A stretch of DNA of 64,000 bases, from NCBI RefSeq assembly GCF_003970695.1, contig NZ_CP034570.1, positions 3,100,001 through 3,164,000 of the forward strand. The letters are read 5' to 3'. The stretch is from Maribacter sp. MJ134. Its GTDB lineage: Bacteria > Bacteroidota > Bacteroidia > Flavobacteriales > Flavobacteriaceae. A program made the position numbers and the translations under genes. The notes under the pieces are model-generated. The model saw only the letters and a program-made list of their open reading frames with translations, was not told the origin of the DNA and did no database searches. Within the stretch, counting starts at the first letter, position 1. Each line of letters opens with the position of its first letter. This document shows positions 1 to 9,073 of the stretch, piece after piece.

Positions 1-88
1 TTGTTTCGCAACCATCAACTAAACATTTCCATGGTTTCTTTCTAACGTTAATTCTTATTTGGGCTATAATGTTTTGTGGCTTGGTCAT
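1..88 (-). CDS. Cassette 6 gene, 5' part only (HNH-like N-terminus?)
   Basis: An open frame begins with ATG at 88 and runs off the left window edge without a stop, giving 29 codons that start MTKPQNIIAQIRINVRKK and continue into PWKCLVDGC. It lies immediately downstream of a unit-start motif (GTTG-TGCAC-AAT, read on the minus strand at 101-90), so by position it is the gene of a sixth cassette. The KPWKCLVDGC stretch looks like the start of zinc-ribbon or HNH-like proteins in which a Cys pair precedes a conserved Ser-His, but too little is present to assign it. The start is chosen because it is the first ATG after the recombination site, as in the neighbouring units. Confidence 0.5.
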   Translation of the reverse strand, partial: MTKPQNIIAQIRINVRKKPWKCLVDGCET

Positions 89-89
89 A

Positions 90-232
90 ATTGTGCACAA
101 CGGTCTCGTATAACAGTCAGTTACGGGTTAATATGCGTTAATTTTCGGTTTAGCACAGACTTTAGCAATTCCTAGTGGATTCGGACGTAGTCGAATCCGC
201 CGTAATTGCGGTTATACACTGTTAGCTGTAGT
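90..232 (-). other. attC-like recombination site D (between cassettes 5 and 6)
   Basis: A 143-bp imperfect palindrome. The outer boxes are GTTAGCTGTAGT at 221-232 (end of cassette 5) and the reverse complement of GTTGTGCACAAT at 90-101 (start of cassette 6). Inside them GTATAAC...CAGTTACGG on the left pairs with CCGTAATTGCGGTTATAC on the right. A perfect 7-bp hairpin sits inside (GGATTCG at 177-183 with CGAATCC at 192-198). The box of cassette 5 is repeated in inverted orientation at that cassette's other end (1043-1054). The inner sequence is unrelated to sites A-C but the layout is the same. Confidence 0.7.
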
Positions 233-235
233 TTT

Positions 236-1030
236 TTATCCTTCATCTGGCACGTGTCTAGCTGGATTAATTTTGATTTTTATGCTTTCAGGAAACTCCT
301 TTAAATTAAATTTTTTATTTATAATTTCTTTTACCCTTTCGACTTGCCAATCACTTTCGACAATTACTCCGAGTAGATGGTCAATTGAAAAATCGACTCT
401 TAAGTCTTTTATCAATTCGTTAAAATCTGCTTTTTTGTCCATATCCTCACCAACAAGAAAGTAAGGTACTTTTTCCTGTTGAATTATTTTTCGCCACTCT
501 CTTTCCATACCATATGGATATTTTTCTGCCATCAAAGTATTATTACGAACTAAAATTCCATCATAATTTTTTGAGTGAGCGAAAATCTTTATTTGCTGTT
601 TAGTTAGCAAACTTTTGTGGTCAATCTTTACACCATTCAAGGCATTTTCTAATTCATCTTTAGATGTTGTGGTAATGTCTTTGAAATTACCAATTATATC
701 ATTGGTCAAATCTGATGTTCGTTCGAGGTATAAAACAGGATTGAAATCATTTTCTTCCCCCCATTTTTTGCTCAAAATTATACCTAGAGTACCGTACGAT
801 TTTTGATAAGAAATTGCAAAATCAGAGTCAACATTCGAAGTGCTAATCATAGGAAAACAAGCTCCTTTGTTTTCTTTGTTATTGGTTATATTCTCTTTAC
901 AATAACTTGGTTTCAGTCCTTCAGTTAAAATCAATTCTAAGATTTCCCAATTTTGGGTCATATGTATAAGTGGGAAACTATCTCTTTCCCCAGGCTCAAA
1001 AATTCTATCAGTATCTACCCAATAATCCAT
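236..1030 (-). CDS. Cassette 5: AbiGi-like phage-resistance protein
   Basis: 264 residues from the ATG at 1030; an upstream TTG at 1042 would add four residues. The pattern resembles the AbiGi family of abortive-infection proteins: a short opening with FPLIHMTQNWEILELIL, then FPMISTSNV, then a tract like YGTLGIILSKKWGE followed by NPVLYL, and an EREWR motif further on. The family link is from memory of this pattern and is moderate. AbiGi is described as the antitoxin-like partner in an Abi system, but no AbiGii partner is adjacent. The gene stands alone between two attC-like sites, and its stop lies 4 bp beyond its own end box. It has no promoter of its own that I can see, so it may be read from the leader near the integrase. 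Confidence 0.55.
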   Translation of the reverse strand: MDYWVDTDRIFEPGERDSFPLIHMTQNWEILELILTEGLKPSYCKENITNNKENKGACFPMISTSNVDSDFAISYQKSYGTLGIILSKKWGEENDFNPVLYLERTSDLTNDIIGNFKDITTTSKDELENALNGVKIDHKSLLTKQQIKIFAHSKNYDGILVRNNTLMAEKYPYGMEREWRKIIQQEKVPYFLVGEDMDKKADFNELIKDLRVDFSIDHLLGVIVESDWQVERVKEIINKKFNLKEFPESIKIKINPARHVPDEG

Positions 1031-1042
1031 ATGGTTTTTCAA

Positions 1043-1248
1043 ATTACAGCTAACGGTTGGGCTAAGCGTAGTGCGGAGACAAGTAAACTTTTCGTTTCCG
1101 TCTTAGCACGAAGCTAAAGCTTATTGTTTAGTTTTATTTTTTCTTGTCCAAAGCTAAATCCATAAGATTTAGCGACTTCATAAATATGCACAGACCTTTA
1201 GATTTAGACCTAAAGTCCGCATTACGTTTAGGCTGTGTTAGAGCAAGT
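1043..1248 (-). other. attC-like recombination site A (between cassettes 4 and 5)
   Basis: A 206-bp imperfect palindrome. The outer boxes are GTTAGAGCAAGT at 1237-1248 (end of cassette 4) and the complement of GTTAGCTGTAAT at 1043-1054 (start of cassette 5). The inner arms are 1059-1076 (GGCTAAGCGTAGTGCGGA) and 1215-1233 (GTCCGCATTACGTTTAGGC), which pair on the plus strand with G-T wobbles at two positions. A perfect hairpin GCTAAATC/GATTTAGC lies at 1153-1173. The site is nearly the same sequence as site C (5124-5330) inside the boxes, while the boxes differ. Confidence 0.75.
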
Positions 1249-1252
1249 TTTC

Positions 1253-1684
1253 TTACCAGTTTCTTGTGGCGATTAACTCTTCTACATCAGCGTCAAATCC
1301 ATAAGCTTCAGAAATATATGCAAAATTAGCTCCTAAACATTCTCTTGCTCCAGTTTCAATTTCGCTATTATTTTCAAAAAATTCGTCTTCCAAATCATTT
1401 AATTTATCAGTAGCACTTTGTGTTATTTTATAGAGTTCTTCTAAATTTTCAGGCGTTTCCGTTTCGATAGTCCCACACATATTTACTAGTATATTTTTAC
1501 ACTTGTCCACGAGAAATTTTGGAAAATAGGAGTCTCTATACATACAATCTAAAAATCCATAATCTTTTAGTTTTACATTAGTCAATTCGGTTTGTTTAAT
1601 CATTCCATTATTCGAATTTTGTGATTTTCCAAAGTTGCAGGCGGTAATCAATAGAATTAATAATATGTAAAGTGTTTTTTTCAT
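1253..1684 (-). CDS. Cassette 4: small secreted lipoprotein
   Basis: 143 residues. A type II signal peptide is plain: MKKTLYILLILLITAC with the lipidated Cys at position 16. The mature part is acidic and carries about four further Cys residues (in LDCMYRD, DKCKNI, NMCGT, RECLG), which could form disulfides in the periplasm. I do not recognise the family; small cysteine-containing exported proteins of this size include immunity proteins against secreted toxins, but nothing here proves that. It is the only gene between sites A and E, and its stop is 5 bp outside its end box, as expected for a compact cassette. Confidence 0.6.
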   Translation of the reverse strand: MKKTLYILLILLITACNFGKSQNSNNGMIKQTELTNVKLKDYGFLDCMYRDSYFPKFLVDKCKNILVNMCGTIETETPENLEELYKITQSATDKLNDLEDEFFENNSEIETGARECLGANFAYISEAYGFDADVEELIATRNW

Positions 1685-1692
1685 TTTTTTAA

Positions 1693-1829
1693 ATTTGCTC
1701 TAACGTGTTTGTGTATGATTTCGTTGCGTGTTTCAGCAACTAATTTAGCAAATACAAACCGAATAGAAAATCCGCGAGGATTTTCTTAAGTAGGCGAGTA
1801 CTAGCAATGAATTATACACGGTGTGCCTG
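1693..1829 (-). other. attC-like recombination site E, main part (split by IS)
   Basis: The start box of cassette 4 (complement of GTTAGAGCAAAT) is at 1693-1704. Next comes a palindrome whose left arm GTGTATGATTTCGTTGC pairs with GCAATGAATTATACAC near 1807-1820. A perfect hairpin GAAAATCC/GGATTTTC lies at 1766-1785. The other end box of this site (GTTGTACTTAGT, cassette 3) is found only beyond the insertion sequence, at 3575-3586. Joined without the element, the site would be about 160 bp. Confidence 0.65.
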
Positions 1830-3564
1830 TTGCACAAGTTAGGAAAAAAACGGGTCGTAATCATTGCCGATCGTGAGATGGATCGTAACTTTAGGTATGC
1901 AGGGAAAGAAGGACTACCAGGAAAAGCTGTTCGCGAGCTTCCAGCTCAGCGAACGTATACCAAAGGACAATTTTTATAGACGCTTAAGAGGTACAATCGA
2001 TCTGGATTTCCTCTATCGGTTGACCAAGGGATATTATGGGGAGAGCGGCCAGAAGAGCATCGACCCGGTGGTTTTCTTCAAGCTGTGTTTGGTGGGCTAT
2101 CTGGAGAACATCATCAGCGACCGCAAGCTTATCGACCATTGTTCTATGCGCTTGGACATCCTATTTTTCATTGGCTATGACATCGATGAGGAGCTGCCCT
2201 GGCACAGCACCATAAGCAGGACCCGTCAACTGTTCCCGGAGTCCGTTTTCGAGGAGGCGTTCACCAATATTCTGTCCATGTGCGTGGAGAGGGGTATGGT
2301 GAGCGGCCATACGCAGGCGATCGATTCGGCCCCTGTAAAGGCGAACGCAAGTATGGATACCTTGGAGCTGAAGGTGCCCGAAGAGGATTTGGAGGAGCAT
2401 CTGAAAAAGATACGTGCGATCAGTTCAATGGACAGAGAAGGACCCCACCGTAAATCCAAGAACGATAAATCGGATGAAGGTCAACGGGGTATTACTGCGA
2501 GCAAGAGGGAACTTGACGCGATAAAGGGCCGTAACAAGAGATGGGCAAAAGACCAAGATCAACGTCCCGGTGCCGGGAACAAGGGGTCGAAATACACGAG
2601 CAACAATGCCTTCCTCTCGCTTCGCTCGTCGGAGGCAAGACAGTCCCACGGATCCCGATGCCAGGATAAGCGTAAAGCCCGGTAAGGCGCGGAAGCTGAA
2701 CTACCTCTCCCAATTGAGCGTGGACACGGCGAACCACGTGATCACCGATATCAGGGCGTACCATGCGGACGGAAAGGACAATCAACAGCTACAGGATATC
2801 GTACACCGCTTACAAAGAAGGTTATGGCAACAGGGTATGGTTTTTGAAAACTGCGTAGCGGACACGGGCTACAGTTCGGGCGAGAACTATGCCTTTCTGG
2901 AACAGCAGGGGCTAAAGAGTTTCATTCCACCGCACGGCACCTACAAGGGCGGCCCCGATGGGTTCGAGTACATCGGGGAACATGACCATTATCTGTGTCC
3001 ACAAGGAAAGGTGATCCCTTTCACCAAGATGTTCAAGGACTACCGTACGGGAACGAAAAAGAAGGAATACAGGGCAAGGAAGCATGTCTGTACCGATTGT
3101 CCTATACGTAGCACGTGTCTGGGAAAGAGTGCACAGGAGAAGAAGTTCTCGGTGACCTATTATCGGGAAGAATACGAACGTAATAACGAAAGGGTCAACA
3201 GTCCACAGGGGAGGTACATGAAGGGCAAACGCCAGAGTACCGTGGAACCGGTCTTCGGTACCCTGACCCAGTTCATGGGCATGCGCAAGATTAACACCAT
3301 CGGCCTTGCACAGGCCAACAAGGTGATGCACCTCTCGGCCATCGCCTACAATTTGAAGAAGTACCTGAAATTCGAACGAAAACTGGCAGAAAGCGGGGCG
3401 GGACGGCTTGCTTTGAAGGCATTGGCCAAAAGTGTGCTCCAAAACCTGTTTCAAGCTTCCATGACGCATCGGAATTTGGACTTCCGTTTCTGAGCCGACA
3501 TGAAAAAAGCCCCTTAAAAAGGCTTAAACGGAGCTGTTTCATTCAGAATTTAAGCTTGTGCAAC
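1830..3564 (+). mobile_element. IS1182-like insertion sequence
   Basis: A single transposase gene (broken, see next entry) lies between perfect 10-bp terminal inverted repeats: GTTGCACAAG at 1830-1839 and CTTGTGCAAC at 3555-3564. The repeats may extend a little outward, because a few bases on each side are not explained by the recombination site. I cannot define a target duplication. The element is clearly GC-richer than the cassettes around it. A hairpin near 3503-3529 (AAGCC...GGCTT with A/T-rich flanks) probably ends the transposase transcript. It sits inside attC-like site E. Confidence 0.8.
1864..3493 (+). pseudogene. IS1182-family transposase, frameshifted
   Basis: Two overlapping open frames make up one DDE transposase. 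The 5' frame (1864-2685, TTG start, 273 residues) has the N-terminal DUF772-type region (DPVVFFKLCLVGYLENI, DHCSMRLDILFFIGYD) and AIDSAPVKANASMD. The 3' frame (entered by about 2640 and ending at 3493) has the catalytic half, with ENCVADTGYSSGENY, a Cys-rich CTDCPIRSTC segment and RQSTVEPVFGTLTQFMGMRK. The change of frame falls at 2608-2641. There a GC-rich, partly palindromic stretch (TGCCT...AGGCA at 2606-2637) appears to be inserted between the codons for KYTSNN and SPTDPDARIS. The gene is probably inactive, although ribosomal frameshifting cannot be excluded from sequence alone. Confidence 0.8.
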
Positions 3565-3574
3565 GGTTACCTTT

Positions 3575-3586
3575 GTTGTACTTAGT
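3575..3586 (-). other. End box of cassette 3 (orphaned half of site E)
   Basis: GTTGTACTTAGT on the plus strand matches, with the usual single A-to-G change, the start box of the same cassette (GTTGTACTTAAT, minus strand, 4472-4461). The rest of site E lies at 1693-1829 beyond the IS. The stop codon of the cassette 3 gene shares base 3586 with the box. Confidence 0.7.
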
Positions 3587-4455
3587 TATTTTCTACGCAA
3601 CAGTTTATCTATTATCTCAATATCTATTTCAACAATTTGCTCTAATCCATAAGCATTAAATAGTTGAAAAGCATATTCTGTAGGACTTACGGATTTGGGG
3701 AAATCAGGAATCGTATTAAGACCTGAAGTTGGGTCTAAAATGTGCTTAAAACCTAATTGAAAAAGGTTGCTTTTAAACATTACAACCTCTTCCGATTGCT
3801 CCAGTTCAGAATCTTCCATTAAAAGATTGTAGAAAGGCTTCAATCGTAAATTATCTGAGGTCTCGTTATTTCTTATTACCACCCATCTCAATATAAGAAG
3901 TTGACTAGTATTTAGTCCATTCAGTTCTGATAGGTAATGGGGAAGATTGATTTCCGAAACGTCGTTAAATTCAACTTTATGTAAAAGGTTAGTTACGCAT
4001 TGAAATCTAATTAGGTCTATGTTTGAAGTATTGATTATTTGAGTACAACTGATAAATGTGTTATAGGATAGTTTACTTAAGATGTTTAAACGAAAAAGTT
4101 TTCCAATAAGCGATGCAATTCTTGAATCTTCGGCTTTGTCAATCACGAAGAGCAACTTATCTCCAACACTTGATTCGTATTTCTCCGAACTGTTTATCTT
4201 TTTAATTTGTTTTTGTCTTTCCTCTAATGGAATGGTTTGCAGTTCGGTTAGAAAGTACAGAAGTTTTTTAGTTAATAACCTGTCTTTAATAGTAAAATAC
4301 CCTTTTGATAGTCCAACAATGGAGCCTATTAGGGGTATGTCCCTTAAAAGTCCATCATCAAGAGCAAGGTCCACGACTGATTCGGCTAAATCGATGGATA
4401 CGCTTTGAATTTCCTCCGTTTTTACGACGGTTTCTATTTTTTCTTGAAGTTTCAT
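3586..4455 (-). CDS. Cassette 3: uncharacterised 289-aa protein
   Basis: 289 residues and no signal peptide. A hydrophobic stretch at about residues 38-55 (LLRDIPLIGSIVGLSKGYFTI) is followed by a basic IKDRLLTKKLLYFL segment. The remainder is predicted mainly helical, and the C-terminal part (PTEYAFQLFNAYGLEQIVEID) resembles an amphipathic helical tail. Proteins with this DIPLIGSI/IKDR opening are familiar as hypothetical proteins of Bacteroidota, but I know no function. The amphipathic region could touch a membrane. The gene fills its cassette almost exactly: ATG 6 bp after the start box, stop at the end box. Confidence 0.55.
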   Translation of the reverse strand: MKLQEKIETVVKTEEIQSVSIDLAESVVDLALDDGLLRDIPLIGSIVGLSKGYFTIKDRLLTKKLLYFLTELQTIPLEERQKQIKKINSSEKYESSVGDKLLFVIDKAEDSRIASLIGKLFRLNILSKLSYNTFISCTQIINTSNIDLIRFQCVTNLLHKVEFNDVSEINLPHYLSELNGLNTSQLLILRWVVIRNNETSDNLRLKPFYNLLMEDSELEQSEEVVMFKSNLFQLGFKHILDPTSGLNTIPDFPKSVSPTEYAFQLFNAYGLEQIVEIDIEIIDKLLRRK

Positions 4456-4460
4456 TTATA

Positions 4461-4664
4461 ATTAAGTACAACGGTTGAGCTATGAACAGTACGGGGGCAA
4501 ACTAGCGTTTGCTTTCTGTCACGCACATAGCAAAATCTTTTTGTTTTTTTTTCTTTTCCTTGTTTAAAGCAAAATCAAAAAGATTTTGCGGACTTCATAA
4601 AATTACACAAACCTTTGCATAAAGCCCTAAGTCCGTATTGTTTATAGGTTGTGTTGTAGTTAGT
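4461..4664 (-). other. attC-like recombination site B (between cassettes 2 and 3)
   Basis: A 204-bp imperfect palindrome. The outer boxes are GTTGTAGTTAGT at 4653-4664 (end of cassette 2) and the complement of GTTGTACTTAAT at 4461-4472 (start of cassette 3). The inner arms are GCTATGAACAGTACGG on the left and CCGTATTGTTTATAGG on the right (about 4632-4648). The hairpin GCAAAATC/GATTTTGC is at 4569-4589. It has the same architecture and length as sites A and C but different bases in both stems, with pairing kept (compensatory changes). The 3' end of the cassette 2 reading frame runs into it. Confidence 0.75.
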
Positions 4665-5117
4665 GTTTTCTGCGTTTTCTAGATTTAAGTGTTTTTTTAC
4701 AGGTAAAAACACATTATTTAAATGGCTGCGTGATTCCAAATGTTTTACTATATCTGTCTTTGTATTTATAGAATTTATCACAGGCAGCAATAAATCGTTC
4801 ACAAAATACTCAGTATTTCGATTACGAACGGTCTTGTCCATTGAGTTTGTTAAATCCAATGTATCGAAAATCAACTTTCGTTCTTTCCGTTTTTTGGAAC
4901 CCAATCGATTCCAAATATGCATGCTAACCTCCTTATAATCCAAGTCCTTGAAATTATAACCGTAATTCAAATAGTAGCGATTGCTATAATCAGATTTTTG
5001 TAAGTAAATTACTTTTTCCAATTCCTCCGTTTCCGCGGTCCATTTGTTTCCTTTTTTCTTAAAACCATGAGGTTTTAAAAGTCGGTCTAACTCTTCTTTG
5101 AATTCCTGATTGGTCAT
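4575..5117 (-). CDS. Cassette 2: DUF4304-like protein, reading into its attC-like site
   Basis: 180 residues. The opening FKEELDRLLKPHGFKKKGNKWTAE, followed by the YYLNYGYNFKDLD segment, fits the DUF4304 family (function unknown; common in bacterial accessory regions and linked by context to toxin-immunity loci). The last 29 residues (from about TNYNTTYKQYG) are encoded inside recombination site B, and the TGA lies in that site's inner hairpin. The natural domain probably ends before this tail. Either the original stop has been lost or the site regularly supplies the tail. ATG is 6 bp after the start box. Confidence 0.65.
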   Translation of the reverse strand: MTNQEFKEELDRLLKPHGFKKKGNKWTAETEELEKVIYLQKSDYSNRYYLNYGYNFKDLDYKEVSMHIWNRLGSKKRKERKLIFDTLDLTNSMDKTVRNRNTEYFVNDLLLPVINSINTKTDIVKHLESRSHLNNVFLPVKKHLNLENAENTNYNTTYKQYGLRALCKGLCNFMKSAKSF

Positions 5118-5123
5118 TTTTAC

Positions 5124-5330
5124 ATTAACTACAACGGTTGGGCTAAGCGTAGTGCGGAGGCAAGGAAACTTTTCGTTTCCGTCTGTGCACGAAGCTAAAG
5201 CTTATTGTTTAGTTTTATTTTTTCTTATCCAAAGCTAAATCCATAAGATTTAGCGACATTATAAATATACACAGACCTTGGTGTTTTATCTCTAAGGTCC
5301 GCATTACGTTTAGGCTTTGTTGGCGTTAGT
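5124..5330 (-). other. attC-like recombination site C (between cassettes 1 and 2)
   Basis: A 207-bp imperfect palindrome. The boxes are GTTGGCGTTAGT at 5319-5330 (end of cassette 1) and the complement of GTTGTAGTTAAT at 5124-5135 (start of cassette 2). Inside, GGCTAAGCGTAGTGCGGA pairs with GTCCGCATTACGTTTAGGC, and GCTAAATC/GATTTAGC form a hairpin at 5234-5254. It is a close copy of site A apart from the boxes and a few internal bases. Confidence 0.75.
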
Positions 5331-5409
5331 TTTTTCCGTTCGAGTAAGCTGATTCTCTTGAATTTCGCTTTGCTTTTCCATTCGAATGAGAAGTCCATCT
5401 GAGCAACGG

Positions 5410-5937
5410 TTACGCTCGATTCCTATCCAAAAGCGTTTTGTTTCTTTGGTTCTGAGATGCTTTTACTTCCTTTGCAAGCTTTCTTAGTGTCCGATAATTT
5501 TCTGCATTATCTGGTAAAAAACCAAGAAATTTTTTCTCAATATCCATTACTATATAATTTTGAGTTTTGTTTACCGTGAGTATTGAATCCATAAATTTTC
5601 GCTCGATTTGAACTTTCAAAGTATTCTCTGTTTTCTCAAGAATTTTTAATTTCGTAAATGGATTTTTAATCAATTCATTTATTTCATTCCAGTTTTCGTT
5701 ACTGTTCTCGACGATTATAGAATGTTTTGATTCCAAAAAGTCCACGTACTCAATTTCGTCATACTTTTCATAATCAAATAGTTGCCAAAATACGATACCG
5801 AACGAGCCTACAAATCCTGCAATTACCGGAATAATCCATTGATTCAGGTCAAATCCGTTTGTAAGAGTCCAAAATCCAAACCCGATTGGGAATAGTAAAA
5901 TGGTTTTTAAAATAAATTTTGTTGTCTTGTTTTCCAT
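5410..5937 (-). CDS. Cassette 1: small membrane protein
   Basis: 175 residues from the ATG at 5937, which lies 10 bp inside the unit-start box. A longer frame extends to 6012 but would cross the box, so the shorter start is preferred. Two transmembrane helices follow a short basic N-terminus (about residues 7-26 FILKTILLFPIGFGFWTL and 33-54 WIIPVIAGFVGSFGIVFW). A soluble C-terminal domain of about 115 residues follows, with a beta-rich pattern (LKILEKTENTLKVQIERKF) like proteins that sense or bind at the membrane face. No family recognised. As the cassette nearest the recombinase it would be the newest insertion if this array behaves like an integron. Confidence 0.6.
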   Translation of the reverse strand: MENKTTKFILKTILLFPIGFGFWTLTNGFDLNQWIIPVIAGFVGSFGIVFWQLFDYEKYDEIEYVDFLESKHSIIVENSNENWNEINELIKNPFTKLKILEKTENTLKVQIERKFMDSILTVNKTQNYIVMDIEKKFLGFLPDNAENYRTLRKLAKEVKASQNQRNKTLLDRNRA

Positions 5938-5946
5938 TTTTTCAAA

Positions 5947-6109
5947 ATTAACGTCAACTCGTTTATAAGTCTGTATATCTAATAATTTCCCAAAAGGTAC
6001 AAAATATATCAAATAGCCCTTGAGTAATATACAAATACAAGATAAACGTACGGTTATTTTATATAAGTTTATAAGTATATTTAATGCACGATTTATATAA
6101 AATGAATGT
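5947..6109. promoter_or_regulatory. attI-like leader between cassette 1 and the integrase
   Basis: The array ends at the cassette 1 start box (complement of GTTGACGTTAAT, 5947-5958). The 150 bp from there to the integrase ATG is very AT-rich and carries no palindrome of the attC-like type. GTTTATAAGT occurs twice as a direct repeat, at 5961-5970 (2 bp from the box) and 6067-6076. Reading leftward there is a weak promoter-like TATATTTTG near 6005. In an integron this position holds attI and the cassette promoter; the assignment here is by position and these repeats only. Confidence 0.4.
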
Positions 6110-7177
6110 ATGAGGTTATCCGACTATACCTTACAACCCGATGAGCATAAGGGCAAAGATGTTATCCTAGTACAATTTCCGTTCAACACAGCGCTAAAAC
6201 TCGCTCTAAAAAAGCGGTTTCCCTCCGCTAGATGGAGCGCTAGTAAAAAATCATGGTACCTACCCGATCTACCAGCGGTAAGAAGGGAATTAGAATTAGA
6301 GGAAAAGAACACCTTAGAAAGTAAAGCGTTAAGGCTACACGAGGTAAACCGGGATGCTTACCGTGCACTAGATAAGCAGCTAACACTTAAAGACTATAGT
6401 AAGAGCACCATTACCATATATTTAGCGGAGTTTTACCATTTGCTCAAACTTTTAGACGATTATCCGGTCCAGGACTTGAACCCTAAGCGGCTTAAGGATT
6501 ATTTTTTATACTGTATCCGTGTAGAAAAAATGGGAGAACGCAAGCTTAACGGTAAAATCAACGCTGTAAAGTTCTATTTTGAACAGGTGTTGCATAGACC
6601 AAAGATGTTCTTTGATATACCCCGCCCTAAAAAGGCCGCTAGTTTACCAAAAATGCTGAGTAAGACCGAGGTAAAAAAACTTTTCAATGTCACCCAAAAT
6701 CTAAAACATAAAATAGCCCTTCAACTATGTTACGGTATGGGACTTCGGGTTTCTGAAGTGGTCAATTTAAAAATTGAGCATATAGACAGTAAAAGAATGG
6801 TGGTACATGTAGTTGGGGCAAAAGGAAAAAAAGACAGGTACCTGCCCTTGCCAAAATCTATTCTGCCCAAGTTGCGGGAGTACTATTTAACCTATAAACC
6901 TAAAACATACCTTCTAGAAGGTCAATATGGTGGGCCGTATGGAAAATCTAGCTTGCAGCAGATGTTTAGGCTCGCCATGAAAAAAGCGAACATTCGTAAA
7001 AAAATCGGTATTCATGGCCTACGCCACAGTTATGCAACACATTTATTGGAGGCCGGCGCGGATATGCGTTTTATTCAAGAGCTGTTAGGGCATAATAGCA
7101 TAAAGACCACACAGGTATATACCAAGGTATCTCCGCGTAGTCTATCTAAAGTACAAAGTCCGCTAGATACCATGTAA
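6110..7177 (+). CDS. Tyrosine recombinase next to the cassette array
   Basis: 355 residues. An N-terminal module of about 60 residues has the W-S-x-S-K-K-x-W-Y-x-P motif (W42, W49, P52) seen in many Bacteroidota recombinases. A SAM-like core-binding domain follows (about 85-165), then the catalytic domain. The visible catalytic set is R213 (GLRVSE), Lys in AKGKKDR (238-241), H302/R305 (HGLRH), H328 (LLGHNS) and Y337 (VYTKV). The C-terminus ends VQSPLDTM, close to the SPLD ending of IntI enzymes and their relatives. I do not see the extra helix region that IntI proteins carry before the second Arg box. The gene is transcribed away from six same-strand cassettes, which is the integron arrangement, so I infer it acts on the attC-like sites. 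A plain XerD-type phage integrase is the alternative. Confidence 0.8.
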   Translation: MRLSDYTLQPDEHKGKDVILVQFPFNTALKLALKKRFPSARWSASKKSWYLPDLPAVRRELELEEKNTLESKALRLHEVNRDAYRALDKQLTLKDYSKSTITIYLAEFYHLLKLLDDYPVQDLNPKRLKDYFLYCIRVEKMGERKLNGKINAVKFYFEQVLHRPKMFFDIPRPKKAASLPKMLSKTEVKKLFNVTQNLKHKIALQLCYGMGLRVSEVVNLKIEHIDSKRMVVHVVGAKGKKDRYLPLPKSILPKLREYYLTYKPKTYLLEGQYGGPYGKSSLQQMFRLAMKKANIRKKIGIHGLRHSYATHLLEAGADMRFIQELLGHNSIKTTQVYTKVSPRSLSKVQSPLDTM

Positions 7178-7192
7178 CATTAAAGGTGTTGT

Positions 7193-7807
7193 TTAGACCA
7201 ATCGTTTGGCAATGCCGTTGACCGTTAAAAAATCTAGTTTTAAGATAAGGTTTATGGGCTTTTCCGCTTTCTGCAGATTAGAAAAATAGAGATAGCCTTG
7301 CTTTTTAGCATGTAGTTGCGCTAGTGTTTGCTTGGCACTCTTACCCGGGTGCTTTTTTATTACTTGGTCCAATGACTGCCTTGTAATGCCTTTGGATGCT
7401 AAGAAAGCAAGTAACTTTTTTCGGTTCACCAAAGTAATTTTGCAAGAGGTAAAGGTATTGGGGCTATCCTCGTAAATTGCGGTGACCAGCGCATAGAAAT
7501 CGGTTTTCTTGGCAGTATCAAAAAGCCAACCCTCCCTTACCAGTTCTTTTTTTTGATATTCGATTTCAAAGGCAAAAGTGGGTAGGTCATCGTTAATATA
7601 ATCTAGCTGTGCCTTCTCATCAATGCTATACTTTTCGCCAGTGGTCTTATGGGTAAAAACAACATCAATGCCCTTTAATTGCTGGTCGTAAGCGGAAATA
7701 CGCTCAAAGCGGTAGTGCTTTAGGTGTAAGGTATACATGCGGTCTAGCAGCGGAAACAACTGCCGTTCCTTTTTTAAATCTGCCTTAAAAGTGCTTTTCA
7801 ACGCCAT
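7193..7807 (-). CDS. Candidate type II restriction endonuclease
   Basis: 204 residues, 39 bp downstream of a cytosine-5 DNA methyltransferase on the same strand. A PD-(D/E)xK-like arrangement is visible: D48 (KGIDVVFTH), then S-I-D63-E-K65, with another acidic strand FAFEIEY at 79-84. The order 'D, about 15 residues, D-x-K, Q' fits restriction nucleases that act on double-stranded DNA. I know no named enzyme with this sequence, and the recognition site cannot be read from it. The assignment depends mainly on the neighbour. It is convergent with the recombinase gene, only 15 bp away, so the pair may be part of the same accessory block. Confidence 0.6.
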   Translation of the reverse strand: MALKSTFKADLKKERQLFPLLDRMYTLHLKHYRFERISAYDQQLKGIDVVFTHKTTGEKYSIDEKAQLDYINDDLPTFAFEIEYQKKELVREGWLFDTAKKTDFYALVTAIYEDSPNTFTSCKITLVNRKKLLAFLASKGITRQSLDQVIKKHPGKSAKQTLAQLHAKKQGYLYFSNLQKAEKPINLILKLDFLTVNGIAKRLV

Positions 7808-7846
7808 GTTTTGAGTTTCCTGCCAAAGACTGTTATCGTATGAAGA

Positions 7847-9073
7847 CTATTGGACGATTTTTTCGTAGAGCGATTTTCCAAGTCGTTCCACGACCCCTAC
7901 CACAAGGGCATTGCCCATAAAGAAAGCCCGCTTTGCATCACTAATTCCTTCCAAACAGGTGTGATGGTCCGGAAACATGTTCGAGCGCTCCAGTTCCAAA
8001 GGGGTTAGTCTTCGCAATCCCTTTGACGTTTGCACCACATGTTTAAACCGTGAAGGGCTTTTACCCCCCTCTCCCGTTATAATGGTCCGTGATGGCCTGT
8101 CTAACGCGTCCGGAAACTGCATACTCCCTTCGCTGTAATTATAGGAGAATCCGTTTTTTGCGGTACGCACTTCTTTTTTGGACCCTTTTAAATAGGCCCA
8201 TTTTTCAATGTCTTCTGGAGCAATATAAAATTCTGTTGGCACTTGGTCACATGTTAAGATATCGGCCAGTACGGTATGTTCCCCATCAAATTCCGGAAAG
8301 GTTTTACCGGTAAAGACCTGTCCGTTGATGCAGATACCCGAATTTTGGAAAGGGGATAGTTTTTCACCGGCATTGAACTGCTCTGAAAGCTGTACCATGT
8401 CCGGCTCTAGCGTAAAGGTTTTTTGGTCTTCTATAACTGCACTAACAGGAAAAGCGCTGGCAACGGTACCCTCCGAGCTTAGCCATGCTTTGGGGTCCGT
8501 CTCTTGGAGGCGGTCGTAAACCGCACCGGTCTTGTAGTAACCCAGCAGAAAGACACGTCTTCTACGTTGGGGCATACCATAGTCCGCCGCATTGATTACG
8601 CGCCACTCTACTGCATAACCCAAGCTATCCAAACTCCGCAGCATTACGGCAAAATCCCTGCCCCGCTGGCTAGAGGGCGACTTTAGCAGGCGGTCTACAT
8701 TTTCCAGAAAAAGGTATTTAGGCATATGTTTTTTCTCGGACAGGATACGGTGTATGCTCCACCACAAGACCCCTTTTTTCCCCAAAAGCCCTTTGGAGTT
8801 CTGCAAGGTAGTGGCCACGGAATAGTCTTGGCAGGGAAAACCGCCTACCAGAACATCCGCATCCGGAATTTTGTCCGTGGGAACTTCTTCGATAGACGTA
8901 TTACTGTGGTTTTTGGGCCCGAACCTAGCTTCATAGACCATGGACGCATGCTGTGTTTTGGTGCTGGGTTCCCACTGGTTGCTCCATACCACCTCGTAAC
9001 CGCCGGTTTGTTCCAGACCCAACCGAAACCCACCAACACCCGCAAAAAGCTCTATGACCTTTAATTTTTTCAT
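7847..9073 (-). CDS. DNA (cytosine-5-)-methyltransferase
   Basis: 408 residues. It transfers a methyl group from S-adenosylmethionine to C5 of cytosine in DNA. The family motifs appear in order: ELFAGVGGFRLGLE (motif I, SAM binding), GGFPCQDYSVA with catalytic C81 (motif IV), FLENVDRLL (motif VI), GMPQRRRRVFLLG (motif VIII) and GNALVVGVVERLG (motif X) near the C-terminus. The variable target-recognition region lies roughly at 230-350. Length is normal for a type II enzyme. With the nuclease candidate downstream it forms a likely restriction-modification operon; the target sequence is unknown. About 130 bp separate it from the divergent NlpC/P60 gene, enough for promoters in both directions. 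Confidence 0.93.
   Translation of the reverse strand: MKKLKVIELFAGVGGFRLGLEQTGGYEVVWSNQWEPSTKTQHASMVYEARFGPKNHSNTSIEEVPTDKIPDADVLVGGFPCQDYSVATTLQNSKGLLGKKGVLWWSIHRILSEKKHMPKYLFLENVDRLLKSPSSQRGRDFAVMLRSLDSLGYAVEWRVINAADYGMPQRRRRVFLLGYYKTGAVYDRLQETDPKAWLSSEGTVASAFPVSAVIEDQKTFTLEPDMVQLSEQFNAGEKLSPFQNSGICINGQVFTGKTFPEFDGEHTVLADILTCDQVPTEFYIAPEDIEKWAYLKGSKKEVRTAKNGFSYNYSEGSMQFPDALDRPSRTIITGEGGKSPSRFKHVVQTSKGLRRLTPLELERSNMFPDHHTCLEGISDAKRAFFMGNALVVGVVERLGKSLYEKIVQ

Follow-up and report, generated by a model that had tools for sequence, protein, structure and literature searches.

An integron-like gene-capture system predicted in Bacteroidota, with a tyrosine recombinase outside IntI

Integrons, such as the Vibrio superintegron and the class 1 integrons, comprise an IntI integrase, an attI site, and cassettes with attC sites, and the R boxes of classical cassettes pair once the cassette is circular. 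IntegronFinder 2.0 requires the IntI-specific domain, and one complete Bacteroidetes integron, in Salinibacter, was found by this program (PMC9024848; method PMC9668308). The relation of this IntI insertion (I2) to attC has been called a "chicken-egg paradox" (PMC4792948). An integron-like subgroup of tyrosine recombinases includes members without the insertion, for which the available part of that study reports no arrays or attachment sites (Smyshlyaev 2021, PMC8138268). Recombinase-associated acquired interbacterial defence (rAID) clusters consist of co-oriented short genes and conserved intergenic motifs, and their mechanism of gene acquisition was termed not yet clear (PMC12247911). Here, a 64,000-nt stretch of the Maribacter sp. 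MJ134 genome (NZ_CP034570.1, positions 3,100,001 to 3,164,000; the window) was analyzed with respect to one tyrosine recombinase gene (Table 1). The recombinase very probably serves as the integrase in an integron-like gene-capture system of Bacteroidota, which would represent a new integron variant, as judged against open papers, with a recombinase outside IntI. The initial annotation of this locus covered the gene alone (6110-7177); the system reaches left to window position 1 and beyond.

A one-way array of about 18 kb was found on the strand opposite to the recombinase, with its first part about 150 bp from the start codon. Read on the array strand, the order is the recombinase gene (pointing away), an attI-like site, cassette 1, an attC-like element, cassette 2, a further element, and onward. 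The cassettes are co-oriented, and the elements of this array, about 130-200 bp long, have inverted repeats as their ends. The attI-like site is located at about +150 from the recombinase start codon, a position that is conserved in loci of the same arrangement (type i, see below). The Pfam content of the window cassettes consists of DUF4304, DUF5713, and AbiGi, and two cassettes gave no match.

The first bases of each cassette are GTT-N7, and its own downstream element opens with the reverse complement of the heptamer, rc(N7)-AAC, where N7 varies between cassettes. In the nine cassettes of the window array, complementarity to the cassette's own element is 10/10 in eight and 9/10 in one, compared with a mean of 6.6/10 for the elements of other cassettes, where a score of 9 was reached in 4/72. 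An array finder, which required the N7 relation together with a hairpin reaching the following GTT, was applied to the DNA flanking the recombinases in selected genome stretches, and a link was defined as a GTT that ends one element and starts the next cassette. Chained links numbered 38 upstream of the recombinase in close relatives, and wider relatives had 21 on the upstream side and 13 on the downstream side, whereas three control rules, in which N7 was swapped for its reverse, complement, or direct copy, gave 0 links in the same flanking DNA. In 20 random 20-kb stretches, 0 links were found, and 2 in one control mode. Because the pairing rule is symmetric, partial mirror matches arise when an array is read on the opposite strand, and these matches were left out of the evidence. 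An earlier pair finder, without direction or hairpin, found little in wider relatives, whereas the hairpin and the downstream search revealed the arrays there.

The GTT is invariant by construction of the finder. The agreement extends beyond the seven selected positions, with matches at positions 12-14 in 73-89%. Position 11 of the box is nearly always mismatched (A in 107/111), and position 4 is G or A in 107/111. Position 5 is T in 49/111, which does not correspond to the GTTRRRY R box of IntI-type integrons. The longest open reading frame (ORF) follows the array direction in 106 of the 111 cassettes.

Folding calculations with DNA energy parameters, in which the cassette ends were joined, gave greater stability to the bottom strand than to the top strand in 39 of 40 elements, with a mean difference of 3.3 kcal/mol, because A.C mismatches in the top strand correspond to G.T pairs in the bottom strand. 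The count of G.T pairs, 200 on the bottom strand compared with 36 on the top, is partly biased by the scoring of the finder. The elements range from 56 to 205 nt, and a 59-nt element at one locus (L047) forms a nearly continuous hairpin on the bottom strand. The spacers of the two arms differ in length, most often with 6 nt on the crossover arm compared with 3 nt on the other, and the extra bases of the crossover arm may act like the extrahelical bases of IntI sites.

Signs of cassette movement were observed within the genome. For two cassettes of the array (650 and 868 bp), a copy with 100% identity lies at another place in the same 4.0-Mb genome. The identity runs from GTT to GTT, stopping at the left boundary and exceeding the right end by 3 and 5 nt, and the flanks are unrelated. 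Both copies adjoin an attI, which fits what insertion at attI predicts. The 650-bp copy, at 3.924 Mb (L086 12070-12880), lies next to a truncated recombinase 5′ end and an attI region that is 92% identical to that of the window, where the cassette joined first at this GTT differs from cassette 1 of the window; the 650-bp cassette appears to have been inserted there recently. A second integron, at 44 kb, carries the 868-bp copy in first position, and the recombinase of this integron has 37-43% identity to that of the window.

A mechanism can be proposed in which a circular single-gene cassette would carry an attC-like site, the bottom strand of which would fold to a long hairpin. In the circle, rc(N7)-AAC at the start of the hairpin would pair with GTT-N7 at the other end of the cassette, and the recombinase would join the folded site, at GTT, to the attI-like site that adjoins the recombinase gene. 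Joining at attI would place the new cassette in the first position, so that older ones shift outward, and attC x attC recombination would excise cassettes. Three points of this scheme are inferences: the window recombinase as the acting enzyme, the folded bottom strand as its substrate, and the circulation of the cassettes.

The best fold match of the recombinase in the PDB is the V. cholerae integron integrase-DNA complex (2a3v; Foldseek E 2.5e-15), and the AlphaFold2 model of the whole protein has a mean pLDDT of 83.8. Candidate catalytic residues (R213, K240, H302, R305, H328, and Y337) are conserved among aligned relatives. An extra N-terminal module with a W-x6-W-x2-P motif, a C-terminal SPLD end, and the lack of the IntI-specific insertion had been noted in the initial annotation, and all three were borne out. 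The motif occurs as W42-x6-W49-x2-P52 in the N-terminus (RWSASKKSWYLP), and residues 7-60 are predicted with high confidence by AlphaFold2 to adopt a beta-beta-alpha-beta-beta-alpha fold. In the alignment of 34 relatives, W49, Y50, S350, P351, and D353 are invariant, and W42 is variable, being Tyr in some. The module had no usable PDB match (best Foldseek E 0.24; best VIA-align Z 3.9), and a possible HARP-like resemblance found no match in Pfam and was discarded. The span from the K-box (catalytic lysine) to HxLRHS is 58-65 residues in 72/72 Bacteroidota relatives, compared with 60-66 in the Xer rows measured and 98-101 in IntI; thus, the family is devoid of the IntI insertion of about 40 residues. 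In hmmscan searches, the whole protein reached no curated family cut-off for XerA, XerC, XerD, or integron integrase, with 194.3 bits for XerA_Arch (cut-off 220) and 180.9 bits for the integron integrase TIGR02249 (cut-off 265). The TIGR02249 cut-off was exceeded in 0/60 Flavobacteriaceae genomes.

Screening of 296 Bacteroidota genomes identified a relative at E<=1e-40 in 115, some of which are Xer-like. Chained arrays were found in at least eight Bacteroidota families, and about 20 of the 40 wider loci inspected have an attI-adjacent or chained cassette. Three arrangements were distinguished. In type i, that of the window, the recombinase has the module and the array is upstream and divergent; in type ii, mostly with the module, the array is co-oriented and begins 44-147 bp past the stop codon; in type iii, the recombinase has about 280 residues and no module, and the array is upstream. 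Chained arrays are equally clear in the module-less clade (L152, L156, L161, and L181), and the module is therefore dispensable for having arrays. The earlier suggestion that the module grips folded attC-like DNA holds in so far as a folded attC-like array adjoins the gene, but the module is not a general replacement for the IntI insertion, and a role as a necessary attC grip is ruled out by the relatives of about 280 residues.

In a maximum-likelihood tree, the 72 Bacteroidota relatives form one clade (98/94), IntI forms another (100/100), and the two stand together apart from a Xer sample that is small and has long branches (99/91), in agreement with the sister lineage of IntI first proposed from the sequence of the gene. 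The family may belong to the integron-like subgroup mentioned above (PMC8138268). Among 51 contigs carrying relatives, the contig end lies no more than 8 kb from the recombinase on the upstream side in 34 and on the downstream side in 11, as repeat arrays would cause. As a candidate for a cassette promoter Pc, which would read from attI into the array, TAnnTTnG occurs in the array direction in 13/22 attI regions (9 at -41), and in the opposite direction in 0/22.

The catalytic domain is Xer-like, and the extra N-terminal part might serve in arm binding, as expected if the gene encoded a housekeeping Xer or the integrase of a phage or conjugative element that lies beside repeat-rich DNA by chance. 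This explanation is very improbable, being already contradicted by the array linkage: attI is found at a fixed distance in many relatives, arrays occur in three gene arrangements, the genome has separate Xer-like genes, and the clade excludes Xer. A place among phage or conjugative integrases without an array, named in the initial annotation as the opposing case, was not encountered; the best phage matches are remote (at most 37% identical, from residue 82 on), and conjugative elements were not searched as such. It is equally hard to credit that genes and repeats were shuffled by homologous recombination or insertion sequences rather than site-specifically. Such shuffling would be helped by elements that are 70-90% alike, several of which hold near-identical insertion sequences, but the boundaries of the identical copies fall precisely at GTT, their left flanks are unrelated, and an attI adjoins them, and homologous recombination could not create the N7 complementarity within each cassette.

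Alternatively, another recombinase might mobilize the array in trans, and the gene linked to the array would then be a relic or a regulator. The family member at 44 kb does have cassettes in common with the window array, but the window gene is intact, its catalytic residues are conserved, and attI is kept beside the gene in relatives, which makes this improbable. The second enzyme is of the same family, and the mechanism therefore stands. Several points nevertheless weigh against assigning the window recombinase as the integrase of an integron-like system. The IntI insertion, the reader of extrahelical bases, is absent, and about half of the 40 wider relatives have no array detectable by the GTT finder. 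Two such recombinases are present in the genome, either of which may have moved the cassettes, and the recombination of the system is predicted from sequence.

Table 1. Features of the recombinase locus and its array (window positions)
Feature	Position	Strand	Basis or remark
Tyrosine recombinase (integron-like integrase), 355 aa, intact ORF	6110..7177	+	ORF; Pfam Phage_integrase 1.7e-37; fold match
Extra N-terminal module, residues 1-60, W-x6-W-x2-P	6110..6289	+	alignments, structure models
Inverted repeat ATTTTATATAA...TTATATAAAAT directly upstream of recombinase, counterpart in relatives	6058..6104	.	comparison of upstream regions
attI-like site, conserved segment ending ...ATATACAGACTTATAAACGA/GTT, crossover GTT 5956-5958	5956..6005	-	kept in relatives
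Cassette 1, ORF 5410-5937, no Pfam match	5136..5958	-	GTT-GACGTTA pairs with own TAACGCC-AAC, 9/10
attC-like element 1	5133..5328	-	repeat, hairpin
Cassette 2, ORF 4575-5117, DUF4304	4473..5135	-	10/10 complementarity; Pfam
attC-like element 2	4470..4662	-	
Cassette 3, ORF 3586-4455, element split by insertion sequence	1705..4472	-	10/10 complementarity
Insertion sequence, ORFs of 273 and 307 aa, within attC-like element	1828..3562	+	ORFs; near-identical copies
Cassette 4, ORF 1253-1684, DUF5713, 650 bp	1055..1704	-	100% identical copy at 3.924 Mb; Pfam
attC-like element 4	1052..1246	-	
Cassette 5, ORF 236-1042, AbiGi family	102..1054	-	10/10 complementarity; Pfam
attC-like element 5	99..230	-	
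Cassette 6, start	1..101	-	array goes on about 11 kb left of window

The inverted repeat in front of the recombinase is a possible operator, and a conserved form, TTGTATATCA...TGATATACAA, precedes the start codon in the upstream regions of relatives (loci L029-L074). The LexA motifs of Bacteroidetes are GGA-N5-TCC and CTAA-N5-TTAG (PMC8565304). Directly downstream of the recombinase, at 7193-9073, a cytosine-methyltransferase-like gene and a neighboring 204-aa ORF might, from visual inspection, form a restriction-modification pair. Near-identical copies of the insertion sequence in cassette 3 lie inside attC-like elements at further loci (L080, L082, L084, L086, and L087), and at least five copies have the same junction context, GGTAACC/GTTGCACAAG. 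IS1111-attC elements target classical attC, and the insertion sequence of the window likewise sits in attC-type sites, which it appears to target. Elsewhere in the chromosome record, near its ends (about 5-14 kb, and 3.98, 3.99, 4.005, and 4.013 Mb), tyrosine recombinase frames of 315 and 333 aa occur as near-identical pairs, which look like a multi-recombinase transposon.

Members of the clade were also found in two settings of known cargo. In a Bacteroides ovatus plasmid record, a clade member is followed by co-oriented type VI secretion system (T6SS) immunity genes, which is the rAID arrangement (L226 8810-16182). Complementarity between cassette start and element is at least 8/9 in 10/11 of these cassettes, compared with 3/110 for other elements, and a Parabacteroides cluster showed the same within-cassette complementarity by eye (L228 8810-13950). 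The rAID triplet is TTA in place of GTT, and the GTT finder therefore misses these clusters. No orphan T6SS immunity genes were detected by Pfam among the window cassettes, and among the open papers searched, few of them preprints, none was found to name both integrons and acquired interbacterial defence. On an Acinetobacter plasmid, tet(X5) comes after a 5′-truncated clade member (L224 5353-6537), and its region matches the first cassette of a Moheibacter lacus integron (L061 upstream region 175-1501, array orientation) at 91.7% over 1179 bp by BLAST. Starting at GTT, the initial 300 bases match at 100%, and the exact match takes in one further base on the left side of GTT. Only the left boundary of tet(X5) is cassette-like, and tet(X5) adjoins a different recombinase of the same family.

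Taken together, Bacteroidota probably harbor a second integron branch that spans the phylum, is sister to the IntI branch, and recombines hairpin sites without I2, and of which rAID clusters and the tet(X) region would be parts; folded attC-like sites may thus precede I2 in evolution. Hairpin cassettes can exist without I2, which bears on the paradox noted above (PMC4792948). This reading would set chained arrays in at least eight families beside the one complete Bacteroidetes integron found by IntegronFinder 2.0 (PMC9024848), offer a gene-acquisition mechanism for rAID clusters, and place tet(X) at a cassette boundary.

The core-binding and catalytic domains are common to the window recombinase and XerA, XerC, and XerD, but the former differs by its extra N-terminal module, SPLD tail, cassette array, and scores below the cut-offs. 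The rAID clusters of gut Bacteroidales resemble the present system in their same-clade tyrosine recombinase, co-oriented genes, intergenic motifs, and complementarity, and differ in the TTA triplet, the much shorter elements, and the T6SS immunity cargo. Much is also shared with integrons. An attI beside the integrase gene and tandem, co-oriented single-gene cassettes with hairpin attC-like sites, in which the bottom strand is favored, are present in the sequence, as are complementary cassette ends, and a crossover at GTT and first-position insertion are predicted; GTT-N7 and rc(N7)-AAC would meet and pair in a circular cassette like classical R boxes. Integrase-catalyzed attI x attC recombination is indicated indirectly, by the exact-unit copies beside attI. 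In contrast to IntI integrons, all 72 relatives have the short span without I2, the boxes are GTT-N7 rather than GTTRRRY and pair over 10-15 bp, with position 11 conserved as an A/C mismatch, the commonest spacer asymmetry is 3 compared with 6 nt on the crossover side, and the array is either upstream and divergent or downstream and co-oriented.
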